34,239 nucleotides of DNA from positions 1 to 34,239 of IMG/VR virus record IMGVR_UViG_3300030329_004115; one strand, written 5' to 3'. The notes below the pieces were generated by a model. The model was not told where the DNA came from. It made no database searches and saw only the letters and a program-made list of their open reading frames with translations. Position numbers and translations under genes: made by a program. The DNA comes from a virus. Numbering within the stretch: position 1 is the first letter of the stretch; each line of letters opens with the position of its first letter. This document shows positions 1,803-21,729 of the stretch, one piece after another.

Positions 1803-2758
1803 AAAATCCTCCTTCCAGATGCTTGGTATCCCCATCCCTCTATAGGAACTCTACGCTTCCTTTCCTCAACATCGGAATACTTTCTCATTCCTACCATGAA
1901 CCACCACATATTGCCTTGCGCTATCTCCTGTTCTCGGCGCAGGCGCCTCTCTAAATCCTGATTTCGGCGCTCCTTCTCCTCTAAACTCCGAAACACCGGC
2001 TCCAGGTCCGGTATACGTCTCTCTATAGGGCGCACCCTTTTCCCCAGCTTCAGGAGCGTCTGCACGTATGTACTATCAAATAGCTCTCTCCGCTCGCGCC
2101 GGAACTCCTTGGCCTCGCACAGCAGAGCCCGAGCATGCCTGGGATTCCGGACGATAGGCATCAAGTCGCTCCCTAGGGCCCAGAGAGCAAAGCTAGATAC
2201 CCCCATCAGCTTCTTGATGTACTCCGCTCGCATTACATCCCAGTTCGGGATGAGTTCCTCAATCGCCTCATCCCCCACTCCAATCAACCACCACATAAAC
2301 GCACTGGTATGCAGCTTAGGAACCCGGGTGCTCATGCCCTGAAAAAACCTTCGCGTCCCCCTCGCCCCCCTGCGGCCCGGGGAGAAAGGCAAACCCTCAC
2401 GGTACTGCCCGAGGGTAAAACACGCCACTTCATACGGCGTAGGAGGTTCCTCAAGGCCGAAGGCCGCACGAGCCCTCGGACTCCATTCCCCATGCGCCAC
2501 GCCCATAGTCTTCCCAAATGCGTGCTCCGCGAACGTCCTATTATTAGAAATCCTACCCCGCAGTCGAAACCCCTCATCTTTCTGCTGACTGGGAAACCAC
2601 CGCGTGGAATCCACAATCGGTGGATAGAGCCCAAGGGAAGCAAGCACGTACTGGAACTTGATTCGCTCAGGCAACCCTTTCTGCCGCTTCTTCGCCCTGG
2701 AGTCAAACTGCGGAGCCCGAATCAACTCCGTCCATGCGTCTGTACGTGGCATTCCCAC
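1799..2758 (-). CDS. Unrecognised first gene of the left late operon, about 319 aa
   Basis: This is the first minus-strand gene after the divergent gene-free region. The start could be GTG at 2758 or ATG at 2752; neither has a good ribosome-binding site, which is unusual here and may mean control through the leader. The protein is rich in Arg and Trp. It has a possible amphipathic or hydrophobic stretch around residues 165-215 and a highly charged, probably coiled-coil region of alternating Arg/Glu (about 245-285) just before the C-terminus. I see no Walker A, nuclease or portal motif, so it is not an obvious large terminase. It overlaps the next gene by 4 bases. Confidence 0.7.
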   Translation of the reverse strand: MGMPRTDAWTELIRAPQFDSRAKKRQKGLPERIKFQYVLASLGLYPPIVDSTRWFPSQQKDEGFRLRGRISNNRTFAEHAFGKTMGVAHGEWSPRARAAFGLEEPPTPYEVACFTLGQYREGLPFSPGRRGARGTRRFFQGMSTRVPKLHTSAFMWWLIGVGDEAIEELIPNWDVMRAEYIKKLMGVSSFALWALGSDLMPIVRNPRHARALLCEAKEFRRERRELFDSTYVQTLLKLGKRVRPIERRIPDLEPVFRSLEEKERRNQDLERRLRREQEIAQGNMWWFMVGMRKYSDVEERKRRVPIEGWGYQASGRRIL

Positions 2759-2819
2759 AGGGTAACTTGTTAGATCTCAGATGACGCACCAAAAATGGTC
2801 GCGCATGGAAGAGGGGGGA

Positions 2820-3208
2820 TAACCGGAAACCGGACACCTCCGCACCGGGGATGGGGTCCGCAGCGAACGGAGAGAGCGGAGGGGCACAGCCTCGGGAGCG
2901 CAGCTCGCGCCAGCGAGCGTAGCTCAGGGAGCTGCGACAGCAGCGACCTTCCTTCGCGCAGCGAAGACGAGGCCCCCGGCAGGGGAGCACCGAAGGTGCG
3001 GTGTCGTATCTGTTGGCGTAGCCAACGCAATACGACACATGGCACACATCGGGCGTAAGCCCGCGTGCCCCCCTGGGATCGCGCGGGAGCGACTAGCGAC
3101 CACCGTGAGACGCGGAATAGGCGGAAGGCGAATAGCCTGTAGCCCTCCGAGCGTTCCGATCAGGAACGTGAAGGACAAATCGTCCCGACCGATTAGGGAG
3201 GGACCGCC
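2820..3208 (+). ncRNA. Candidate large structured RNA, dense stem-loops
   Basis: No reading frame here looks real, yet perfect stems follow one another. They include CTCCGC/GCGGAG (2838-2843 with 2876-2881) enclosing TCCG/CGGA, 6 bp at 2903-2918, 7 bp at 2919-2935 (one G-U), 6 bp at 2952-2966, CCCC/GGGG at 2973-2985 and 5 bp at 2987-2999. A 9-bp stem (3001-3009 with 3030-3038) encloses a 6-bp hairpin (3012-3026). A nested pair follows: GGCAC/GTGCC (3041-3045 with 3065-3069) around CGGGC/GCCCG with a GTAA loop. Later stems are at 3126-3138, 3152-3168 and 3182-3204. The GTAA loop is a GNRA tetraloop only when read on the plus strand, which favours that strand. Size and phage setting resemble large ornate phage RNAs such as ROOL or GOLLD, but I cannot show membership. 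An origin or packaging site is an alternative. Confidence 0.4.
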
Positions 3209-3223
3209 CTACTCGTGAGTAGA

Positions 3224-3252
3224 ATGTCAAGGACTTGTAAACCCGTGATAAT
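3224..3252 (+). promoter_or_regulatory. Candidate sigma70-like promoter for the early operon
   Basis: ATGTCA (3224-3229) and GATAAT (3247-3252) are separated by 17 bases, matching the -35 and -10 consensus at 4/6 and 5/6. It lies about 105 bases upstream of the first plus-strand gene and just after the ACCGCCC motif and a 5-bp hairpin (3209-3222). It is the best match I see in the divergent region. No equally good promoter was found for the minus-strand arm. Confidence 0.4.
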
Positions 3253-3340
3253 CTACTGAAGGGTAGATGACTCTCATCCGTCTCACACACGTGAGTGAGT
3301 GAGAGGCCATTTCGGCCAAGGCCCGGGGACCGTTTCCCCG
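3251..3340 (+). promoter_or_regulatory. Structured 5' leader of the first early gene
   Basis: Four hairpins stand in a row before the ribosome-binding site AAGGACA: ATCTAC/GTAGAT (3251-3268); CTCTCA/TGAGAG (3271-3305) enclosing CTCAC/GTGAG with an ACAC loop; GGCC/GGCC (3305-3317); and CGGGGA/TCCCCG (3324-3340). The last ends just before the ribosome-binding site. None has a T-tract, so they look like mRNA-stabilising or translation-control structures rather than terminators. Confidence 0.5.
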
Positions 3341-3357
3341 ATAAGGACAGGTGAAAA

Positions 3358-4020
3358 ATGCGTTATCAAAACTTCAATATTTCTCTCGGTGGCTCGGCTT
3401 CTATGATGCTGGCCGTTCATCCTGACTATTCGTGCGAGGTCACTTCCCTGGAAGATGAGAGCGCCCGCGTGGATATTCTGAGCCCTGACGGTTCAGCCGT
3501 TCACACGGTGTGGACCAAAAATGTCACGGATTCCACGCTGGCTAACTTCCGCGCGTTGGGCGTGGATATCGACGTTTTCCCCCTCTATTCTCCTGGAAAA
3601 TCCGCGAATGAGGGAAACCACGGTCAGAACTGGGAGCGAGCCGTAGACGAGAAGACCAAGGGCTATAAGGTGGAGCGAACCCTTAGATTCTCTACTTCCC
3701 TCACCAGCGACGGTATGTTCCAGCCCGGCCTAAACCGGTGGCATGATGAGAATAATGAGGGAGTTATTGCCTTGTATGTGTGCGAGTTTTCGGTGAGTCC
3801 TACTCGTCAGGAGCAATGGCTGGCCGATGATGCTCCTATCGGGGCGCTCGTGAAACGGACCGAGGCTGACAAGGCGTTCGCCCGTCTCGCCTGCAAAATG
3901 CAGGACGTGAAGAACACTGAGAAGCGACTCGCAGCGCTGCAAAAGGAAGTGGCTACTCTTCAGGCTACCTACGAAAAAGAACTGAAGAAGGAAACCCGGA
4001 AAGCCAAGAAGGCCAGCTAA
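3358..4020 (+). CDS. Unrecognised early protein with C-terminal coiled coil, 220 aa
   Basis: First gene of the plus arm, with an AAGGACA ribosome-binding site 5' of the ATG. Residues 1-165 look like a mixed alpha/beta globular domain. Residues about 170-220 are strongly charged with heptad-like Leu/Ala spacing and end in a Lys/Ala-rich tail, so a coiled coil is likely. No known family recognised. As the first early gene behind a long structured leader it is probably abundantly made soon after infection (inference). It is followed by a 12-bp perfect hairpin. Confidence 0.8.
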   Translation: MRYQNFNISLGGSASMMLAVHPDYSCEVTSLEDESARVDILSPDGSAVHTVWTKNVTDSTLANFRALGVDIDVFPLYSPGKSANEGNHGQNWERAVDEKTKGYKVERTLRFSTSLTSDGMFQPGLNRWHDENNEGVIALYVCEFSVSPTRQEQWLADDAPIGALVKRTEADKAFARLACKMQDVKNTEKRLAALQKEVATLQATYEKELKKETRKAKKAS

Positions 4021-19215: not shown

Positions 19216-21729
19216 ATGTATTGTAAAACATGCGATAACTGCCCGCTCCGTGCGGGACAGACTGGCGAGCCAGTGCTGCCCGAGATGCACGATGATGATC
19301 GTGTAATCATTCTCGGCGAGGCACCTGGATTGCACGAGACTGTAGAGGGGAGACCCTTCGTCGGCCCGAGTGGGCTGGAGCTACAGCGTGCGCTCAACGC
19401 CATAGATGTGCGACGGGATGAGTGTCACATATCGAATGCTGTCCGGTGCAGACCTCCCAAGAATGACTTGGAGGCTCTGAATATCCGAACGTCCCGAGAG
19501 AATCGCAAACGCGAGAAGAAAGCCCGGGCGGAGAAAGTCGAGGTTGTTCGACTGGAACGTCCTGCTGATGCTTGCCAGAGTTTGCTGTTCAAGGAACTTG
19601 CTGCGACTGGGATTACAAACATTGTGTGCTTGGGGAAGACAGCGGCAAAGGCCATTCGGGGGGGAGACGTTTCTATTATGAACATCCGAGGGGGGTGCGA
19701 AGAAGTTTACGCACCCTGGGATCCCAAGGTGAAGCTGAAGGTTGGGTACACAATGCACCCCTCCTTTGTTCTGCGCCAACAGGCGTATCGGGAGGTGTTC
19801 CGACACGACCTAGCCAAGGCTTTCAAATATTTTCAGGGATCTTTAGACTGGCCCGAGCCAGTTATTACTCGCACAAATAAGCCCGAAGTGGTGTCTAAAT
19901 ATCTTTCTAAGTGGTCCAAGAGCCGCGAAAACGTGGCCTATGACTTGGAAACCGACGGGATAGATCCGCGTACTGCCCAGGTCAGGTGCGTAGGAATGGG
20001 CACAGAAGACGAAGCCCTGGTCATAGAAATCCGGGGCATCGATGGGAGCCCTCTCTTGGATTCGGAGGCTTGCGAGGAAATCAAAGATCTCCTCCGGGAC
20101 TTCTTCTTGGAGCCCGGGACAGCCATCCTGGGGCACAATGCCGGACAATATGATCGTGTCGTGATGGAGCAGTGGCTGAACATTACGCCCACCCTCAACT
20201 GCGATACGATTCTTCTACACCTGCTGGCGGACAACGAGCTTCCCCACAACCTAGGATTTGTGGGCTCCTTCTATACAGACAACCCTGAAGCCTGGAAGGC
20301 AGACCACACCGCAGTGGAGGCCAAGACTGACAAGGAGCTTCATATCTACTGTGGGAAGGATGTCTGTGTCACGGCCCGGATTGCCAAGCCTCTCATGCGG
20401 GATGTAGTGAAGCGATCCCAGCAGCATCTTCTTGGCCGGGAGCACACACTACAATCCCTGGGCACAAACATGCAGAACGTGGGCATGGGCGTAGACCTTG
20501 AGCGGGCGAATGAACACATGCTTTCCTTGGACGCGGAAGCGAAGAAGCATCTCGCTATCTGTAAGGAGATTGGAGGTAGTGGGTTCAACCCGCAGAGCAC
20601 TATGCAGCTTGGCCGGCTTCTCTTTGAGGAGTGGGGATTGACTCCGCACCACTACTCAGAGAAGACCGGCGAGCCCTCTACTGACGATGAAACTCTCCGG
20701 ACAATGATTGTCCACTACGGACTCACGGGCGAGCGCATTGAGTTCCTCAAGTCGATTCGCATCTATCGGAAGACCACGAAACTTCTCAGCACCTATGTGC
20801 GCCCCCTGATTGAGAAGAACATCTTGCGAGTTCATCCCTGCTACAACCGACTCCCCGCGACGGGACGGTACTCATCCAGTAATCCAAATATGCAGAATAT
20901 TCCAAAAAGTCTAAGAGACATGTTCGTTGCCCGGGAGGGGTACGTACTCATAGGCGCGGACATGGATCAGTTGGAGTTGCGTTTGATTGCAGAGGAAGCA
21001 GGGGCAAAGCACTCGCTCCGTATCATCAACGAGGGGCTCGACCCCCACAACGAAACCATGGAAGTCATCTACGGCAAGGATGTTTGGAGACTCCCTGGGG
21101 CACCCGAAGAGCGCCAAAAGAAAGGAGGGGGAACCTTCAAGTCAACCCGGGACATTACCAAGAACTGCCGCTATGCCTGGCAGTACGCAGCTTCGACCAA
21201 GAGGATTCATGAGCAGGTTGTCTCCGTGGAAGACGACAAGGGAGAGCTAATCTTCTCTCACCTCTCGCTTGAGGATGTCCGTCAGGTTGTCAATGGACTC
21301 AAGCGGGCTGACCCTGAGATCCCCAAGTGGTGGCGAATGATTGAAAACCGCTACCGGCGAGAGGGGTACATCGGAGATTCCCTGTGGGACAGACGAAGGT
21401 ACTTCCGCAATGAAGATAAAATCAACGAGCTAGTCAATCATCCTATCCAGTCTGGCGGCGTCAACATCGTCAATGAGGGAATGATTGAACTGGTCTATGG
21501 TCCGCAAGATTGGTTCGCGACCGAGCCACTCTCTCAGCCCGAGGGTGTGATTCCCATTGAGTGGCTTATCAATCACGGACACGACGCGCTTTATCTGGAA
21601 GTGCCCGAGGAAGAAGCCGAGCGTGCTGCTTCCATCCTCCAGGATTCAATGGCCCGAAGAAGAAAGAAGAACCCCAAACTCGACTACACGGCAGAGGCTG
21701 ACATCGGTCACCGCTGGAGTGAAGTCTAA
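19216..21729 (+). CDS. Uracil-DNA glycosylase / family A DNA polymerase fusion, 837 aa
   Basis: ATG at 19216 is forced by an in-frame stop 10-12 bases upstream and by the needed N-terminal cysteines, yet no ribosome-binding site is seen. Residues 1-205 are a family 4-like glycosylase: GEAPG (34-38), GRPFVG, HPS (181-183), and probable Fe-S cysteines C6, C9, C78, C120. Residues about 238-400 are a 3'-5' exonuclease with DLE (243-245), N308/D313 and Y378/D382 intact. Residues about 410-837 are a Pol I-type polymerase: motif A D582, motif B R645/K649/Y653/Y657, motif C HDA (789-791). Y653 takes the place of E. coli F762, and A791 replaces the usual Glu after the catalytic Asp. Glycosylase-polymerase fusions are known in some phages. 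Confidence 0.9.
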   Translation: MYCKTCDNCPLRAGQTGEPVLPEMHDDDRVIILGEAPGLHETVEGRPFVGPSGLELQRALNAIDVRRDECHISNAVRCRPPKNDLEALNIRTSRENRKREKKARAEKVEVVRLERPADACQSLLFKELAATGITNIVCLGKTAAKAIRGGDVSIMNIRGGCEEVYAPWDPKVKLKVGYTMHPSFVLRQQAYREVFRHDLAKAFKYFQGSLDWPEPVITRTNKPEVVSKYLSKWSKSRENVAYDLETDGIDPRTAQVRCVGMGTEDEALVIEIRGIDGSPLLDSEACEEIKDLLRDFFLEPGTAILGHNAGQYDRVVMEQWLNITPTLNCDTILLHLLADNELPHNLGFVGSFYTDNPEAWKADHTAVEAKTDKELHIYCGKDVCVTARIAKPLMRDVVKRSQQHLLGREHTLQSLGTNMQNVGMGVDLERANEHMLSLDAEAKKHLAICKEIGGSGFNPQSTMQLGRLLFEEWGLTPHHYSEKTGEPSTDDETLRTMIVHYGLTGERIEFLKSIRIYRKTTKLLSTYVRPLIEKNILRVHPCYNRLPATGRYSSSNPNMQNIPKSLRDMFVAREGYVLIGADMDQLELRLIAEEAGAKHSLRIINEGLDPHNETMEVIYGKDVWRLPGAPEERQKKGGGTFKSTRDITKNCRYAWQYAASTKRIHEQVVSVEDDKGELIFSHLSLEDVRQVVNGLKRADPEIPKWWRMIENRYRREGYIGDSLWDRRRYFRNEDKINELVNHPIQSGGVNIVNEGMIELVYGPQDWFATEPLSQPEGVIPIEWLINHGHDALYLEVPEEEAERAASILQDSMARRRKKNPKLDYTAEADIGHRWSEV

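Follow-up and report, generated by a model that had tools for sequence, protein, structure and literature searches.

What kind of element fills the gap between two divergent operons of an uncultured phage, a structured RNA or a set of hairpins that act as DNA? We analysed IMG/VR virus record IMGVR_UViG_3300030329_004115, a genome fragment of 34,239 bases (the window), which probably comes from an uncultured, podovirus-like phage. The gap lies between a leftward gene block that begins at 2758 and a rightward one that begins at 3358; an earlier note had read it as a candidate large ornate RNA, perhaps of a new class, or else as a structured origin. The leftward block is a late operon, whose order was read in the near-complete relative G003: there, three genes of unassigned function separate the homologous first late gene from TerL, and a P22-like portal and the major capsid protein come next. 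Replication genes lie in the rightward operon, which encodes a primase-helicase, a helicase and a UDG-PolA fusion (19216–21729, + strand), in which a family A DNA polymerase carries a uracil-DNA glycosylase domain at its N-terminus. GC skew switches sign at the divergent early/late junction and simply tracks gene orientation. No tRNA or tmRNA was found in the window. The junction is laid out as follows.

1799–2758, − strand: first gene of the late operon, 319 aa, or 317 aa from the ATG at 2752
2763–2853, no strand assigned: conserved single-copy element, TAACTTGTTAGA...CAAAAATGGTCGCGCATGNAAGAGGGGGNATAACNGGAAA-N~20-GGGGATGG
2896–3340, + strand: hypervariable hairpin array with strand-polar G..A loops
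3224–3252, + strand: sigma-70-like promoter of the early operon, ATGTCA-17-GATAAT
3358–4020, + strand: first gene of the early operon, 220 aa, function unassigned

Counting perfect, non-overlapping hairpins with stems of at least 4 bp and loops of 3–6 bases, we found 18 in 2759–3357 against 7.1 ± 2.4 in dinucleotide shuffles, and 0 of 200 shuffles reached 18, which bears out the earlier count of about 18 stem-loops. Longer stems were also in excess over the shuffles (stems of at least 5 bp, 11 vs 2.1; at least 6 bp, 6 vs 0.6), and the 600-nt bin starting at 3001 had the highest hairpin count among all such bins of the window. RNA folding of the whole region gave z −8.7 on the + strand and −5.4 on the − strand, while single-strand DNA folding of 2840–3240 gave z −5.7 and −5.0. 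ORFs of 65–154 aa overlap the hairpins. Aligned to relatives, however, the region carries frequent indels whose lengths are not divisible by three, and we therefore agree with the earlier note that it holds no believable gene. The following hairpins of the array include both nested ones that the earlier note had described, at 3001–3038 and 3041–3069.

2896–2906, + strand: c(GCA)g triloop hairpin GAGC-GCA-GCTC
2915–2925, + strand: c(GTA)g triloop hairpin GAGC-GTA-GCTC
2952–2966, + strand: c(GCA)g triloop hairpin CTTCGC-GCA-GCGAAG
2987–2999, + strand: c(GAA)g triloop hairpin GCACC-GAA-GGTGC
3001–3038, + strand: two-tier hairpin, outer 9-bp stem GTGTCGTAT/ATACGACAC (3001–3009/3030–3038), inner GTTGGC-GTA-GCCAAC
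3041–3069, + strand: hairpin GGCAC-ACAT-[CGGGC-GTAA-GCCCG]-C-GTGCC, 5-bp outer stem 3041–3045/3065–3069

Relatives were collected by a PolA search, which gave 58 related loci, and through homologues of the first late gene, which gave a matching gap in about 18 phages. The hairpin region, searched as DNA against phage records, had no match. Across these roughly 18 uncultured phages, conservation is limited to the first ~95 nt of the gap (2763–2853). This block reads TAACTTGTTAGA, then AAAAATGGTCGCGCATGNAAGAGGGGG, ATAACNGGAAA and GGGGATG; the distance from AGAG to GGGGATG is fixed at 37–42 nt while the intervening sequence is free, and only a single copy of the block turned up in the sequence that was searched. 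No consensus fold among the relatives was found for it on either strand. With its fixed spacing and lack of a fold, the block therefore behaves like a protein-binding DNA site and not like an RNA domain. A long-range helix between GGGGATG and a downstream CATCCCC was seen in some relatives, but we do not claim it, because its individual significance was weak and it scored alike on both strands. A further motif, GTAGGTTGAACCTGG..TTTCG, recurs in the gaps of L082 and L093 and in the reverse complement of L096 near a 181-aa-like gene, and thus lies in gaps and in apparently coding sequence in different relatives.

Such a block raises the question of whether the locus is a packaging (pac/cos) or late-promoter region, in which the first late protein, a TerS-like protein or late regulator, would bind the conserved element and the hairpins would be an incidental spacer. 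The element is unstructured, single-copy and spacing-constrained, lies ~40–100 bp upstream of the first late gene, and that gene stands four genes before TerL; weak HTH, sigma-r4 and TerS matches appear in some members, the weak HTH signals lying in the first late gene product itself. This product is predicted to be an all-helical protein, with a confident model for 1799–2752 (− strand; pLDDT 84) that has two viral structure matches. Its fold had no match in the PDB, to TerS or sigma factors among others, the 317-aa form, searched as a protein against phage records, had no match, and TerS identity of the 319-aa protein gained no support from the fold search. We consider this explanation improbable, as it accounts for the block and not for the hairpin signature.

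We then asked what the loops of the array look like. The commonest is a three-base GNA closed by C-G. The GNRA loop that the earlier note saw on the plus strand is present, as GTAA, but only once, and the dominant loop is this triloop rather than a GNRA tetraloop. In five hairpin-rich gaps pooled, 30 G..A loops lie on the + strand against 2 of the mirror form (T..C), compared with 9 and 8 in the gaps of the other relatives. The hairpin-rich gaps hold 15 c(GNA)g triloops vs 0.39 in shuffles, with a maximum of 3 in any of 100 shuffles. In N4 promoters, the C:G closing pair together with the 5'G and 3'A of the three-base loop permits extrusion from supercoiled DNA (PMC4496689). A CsrA sponge was ruled out, the window loops being GCA, GTA and GAA and not GGA.

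Pairing was examined in the same way. Perfect stems are enriched three- to eight-fold (5 bp, 59 vs 19; 6 bp, 29 vs 5.4; 7 bp, 11 vs 1.4), whereas stems with one G-U pair stay at or close to the chance level (14 vs 14, 6 vs 7.2 and 5 vs 2.8 for 5, 6 and 7 bp), a level that resembles A-C. In E. coli rRNA, our single control, one-G-U stems of 6–7 bp are about twofold enriched (6 bp, 15 vs 7.4), and a single G..A triloop was seen. As to transcription, no sigma-70-like promoter was found upstream of the array on the + strand; the sole match, at 3224–3252, lies downstream of most hairpins, and the early transcript would therefore omit most of the array. At the early-promoter site, TTGACA repeats with exactly 11-bp spacing occur in L119 (four copies), L081, L085, L089 and L096, and the window has a single degenerate copy; these repeats are likely an operator or activator array.

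These data bear directly on the RNA reading, namely a new large structured RNA class on the + strand that would start near GGGGATG, be driven by a promoter in the conserved block, and have domains that turn over quickly like the 5' part of GOLLD. The + strand folds better than the − strand by the z-scores given above, the + strand is the more structured one in most relatives' gaps, it is purine-rich, its G..A loops are strand-polar, and three genomes share two compensated hairpins and a conserved unpaired ACACAT. Folding scores by themselves do not discriminate between the two nucleic acids, and RNA can also form c(GNA)g loops. Against this stand the stems without G-U tolerance, GNA triloops that outnumber GNRA tetraloops, a conserved block without a consensus fold, the missing upstream + strand promoter, and many relatives that bear the block without the array, such as L096 with a gap folding z of −0.9. 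Moreover, cmscan of all Rfam 15 families gave no match at gathering and none at E≤5 on 2600–3600, and the relatives' loci matched no family either.

The likeness to ROOL and GOLLD suggested earlier thus found no support in Rfam. Like those RNAs, the locus comprises several hundred nucleotides of hairpin-packed phage DNA without genes; unlike them, its array has no consensus fold and no G-U tolerance and is missing in close relatives. ROOL had no covariance-model match and the window has no tRNA neighbours of the kind considered for it; GOLLD had no model match, and its universally conserved part is the 3' region, whereas the conserved part here is the unstructured 5' block; OLE also had no model match. 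Loop chemistry, pairing and location all lean to DNA, and we judge an RNA that starts at some promoter unrecognised within the conserved block, like the new RNA class as a whole, to be rather unlikely. What stands of the large ornate RNA is a structure that is real, strand-specific and partly constrained; assignment to a large-RNA class finds no support in an array that is not conserved, lacks a G-U excess and has loops of the DNA mini-hairpin type.

Given these loops, we compared the array with the early-promoter hairpins of the phage N4 virion RNA polymerase. The two have in common 5–7 bp stems, a C-G-closed three-base loop with 5'G and 3'A, strand polarity, and a position within a phage early control region. 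By the published N4-type pattern, a c(GNA)g three-base loop on a stem of 5–7 bp (PMC4496689), the array qualifies. It differs from N4 in being dense, with changing stems, and in its company of a sigma-70-like early promoter. If a virion-borne single-subunit RNA polymerase recognised each + strand c(GNA)g hairpin, the loop chemistry, the stem length and the location at the early/late junction would all fit. The polymerase was sought in complete or near-complete relatives, the window being a fragment: RNA_pol (PF00940) had no match in 8 related virus records, and a 2037-aa virion protein matched no family and lacked a motif-B pattern. The genome, at ~54–60 kb, is also smaller than the ~72 kb of N4-like phages, and its early promoter is of the ordinary sigma-70-like kind. 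Because no such polymerase was found, we regard N4-type promoter use as very unlikely; the array would resemble N4 hairpins by analogy of loop chemistry and not by membership among N4 hairpin promoters.

To what extent is the array kept among relatives? It is significant by hairpin count in the window, L101, L084 and L087, and by folding in L119 (z −6.1), but it is weak or absent in L093, L096, L086, L088, L092 and others, and many relatives that lack it retain the conserved block. Between L080 and L101, the first late genes are 88% identical at the DNA level and the conserved blocks 79% identical, and yet the L080 gap is 458 nt long without an array and the L101 gap is 788 nt long and hairpin-rich. 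A tandem set of three hairpins, AAATGAGC-N5-GTTTA-N5', lies in L101 (3300030107_006629); their loops are identical, and each has a different perfect stem. The contigs L083, L084, L090 and L122 end within this gap, which is above expectation for ~600 of ~55,000 bases, and these ends may reflect either assembly breaks at hypervariable hairpins or a physical genome end.

Such turnover makes neutral change a serious rival to the DNA-hairpin reading: the gap might be a functionless neutral or selfish hypervariable stretch, whose palindromes arise and stay perfect through template-switch (quasipalindrome) mutation or duplication of small repeats. Wholesale gain or loss between close relatives, other relatives that do without the array, the tandem L101 copies with swapped stems, and perfect stems without G-U would all agree with it. 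The loop and strand preference (30:2; 15 vs 0.39), however, is hard to obtain without selection or a very polar mechanism, and the ACACAT hairpin is conserved in three genomes. We hold the neutral explanation to be unlikely, while keeping it firmly in view.

The compensatory changes were examined next. The close relatives found for this alignment were only L119 (a MAG contig), L101, L080 and L081. In the window, L119 and L101, two neighbouring hairpins retain their pairing through compensatory changes. The hairpin whose ACACAT motif stays unpaired has stems GGCAC/GTGCC in the window and in L119 and GCCAC/GTGGC in L101; the hairpin preceding it has stems TTGGC/GCCAA, GGGGC/GCCCC and GGATC/GATCC and loops GTA, GTA and GGA in the window, L119 and L101, respectively. 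For the two-tier hairpin at 3001–3038, the L119 counterpart is compensated in both outer and inner stems, and the L101 sequence has a possible counterpart of the inner stem. This evidence comes from very few sequences, and the homologous hairpins of L101 were aligned by hand. A structure-guided pairwise alignment of the window with L119 gave 27 and 29 both-sided changes on the two strands, and we use it as a lead only because it is biased by design. The earlier note had proposed to check the stems for compensatory changes in related phages; two adjacent hairpins show them in three genomes, and the other stems of the array are not conserved. Stem changes compensated in three genomes indicate that structure matters, and the array structure appears to be under selection to some degree.

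Taken together, we tentatively favor, at somewhat less than even confidence, the view that the region is a cluster of DNA hairpins belonging to a replication origin or control site at the divergent early/late junction, a view compatible with the structured origin that the earlier note gave as its second option. The control region would then be ordered as a conserved single-copy DNA element, a fast-changing cluster of c(GNA)g-type hairpins, and the early promoter. Negative supercoiling, or a single-stranded state of the + strand, would let the hairpins extrude on that strand, and the extruded hairpins may be structural entry sites that start phage DNA replication, by a hairpin origin or priming, or may form an early/late switch. 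Hairpin formation in DNA within the cell, and a role in replication initiation, are what we infer here. The PolA and primase-helicase genes of the rightward operon support the DNA-hairpin reading, as does the position at the divergent junction with its change in the sign of GC skew. Like hairpin-dependent single-strand initiation sites and phage origins as generally known, the array has strand-polar hairpins near divergent promoters and upstream of replication genes; unlike them, no initiator gene and no iterons were recognised in the window. Several relatives apparently do without the array, which argues against an origin that is essential to every one of these phages.

For phage biology, one caution follows: a sequence crowded with stem-loops that folds with a strong z-score is not, on that basis alone, evidence for a large RNA. 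What the locus means can be put only as a possibility, and a less than even one: rapidly diversifying, strand-polar c(GNA)g DNA mini-hairpins may serve as an origin or switch, with N4-type chemistry but without an N4-type polymerase, or alternatively the locus is a new large phage RNA class that exchanges its stems wholesale. If the hairpins do act as DNA, a dsDNA phage that does not belong to the N4 group would carry a natural, fast-evolving library of extruding mini-hairpins, in which loop chemistry is preserved while every stem is replaced. If this is true, selection at such a control site would see DNA hairpin shape and not sequence, and loop polarity would be a way to detect hairpin origins or promoters in uncultured phages.
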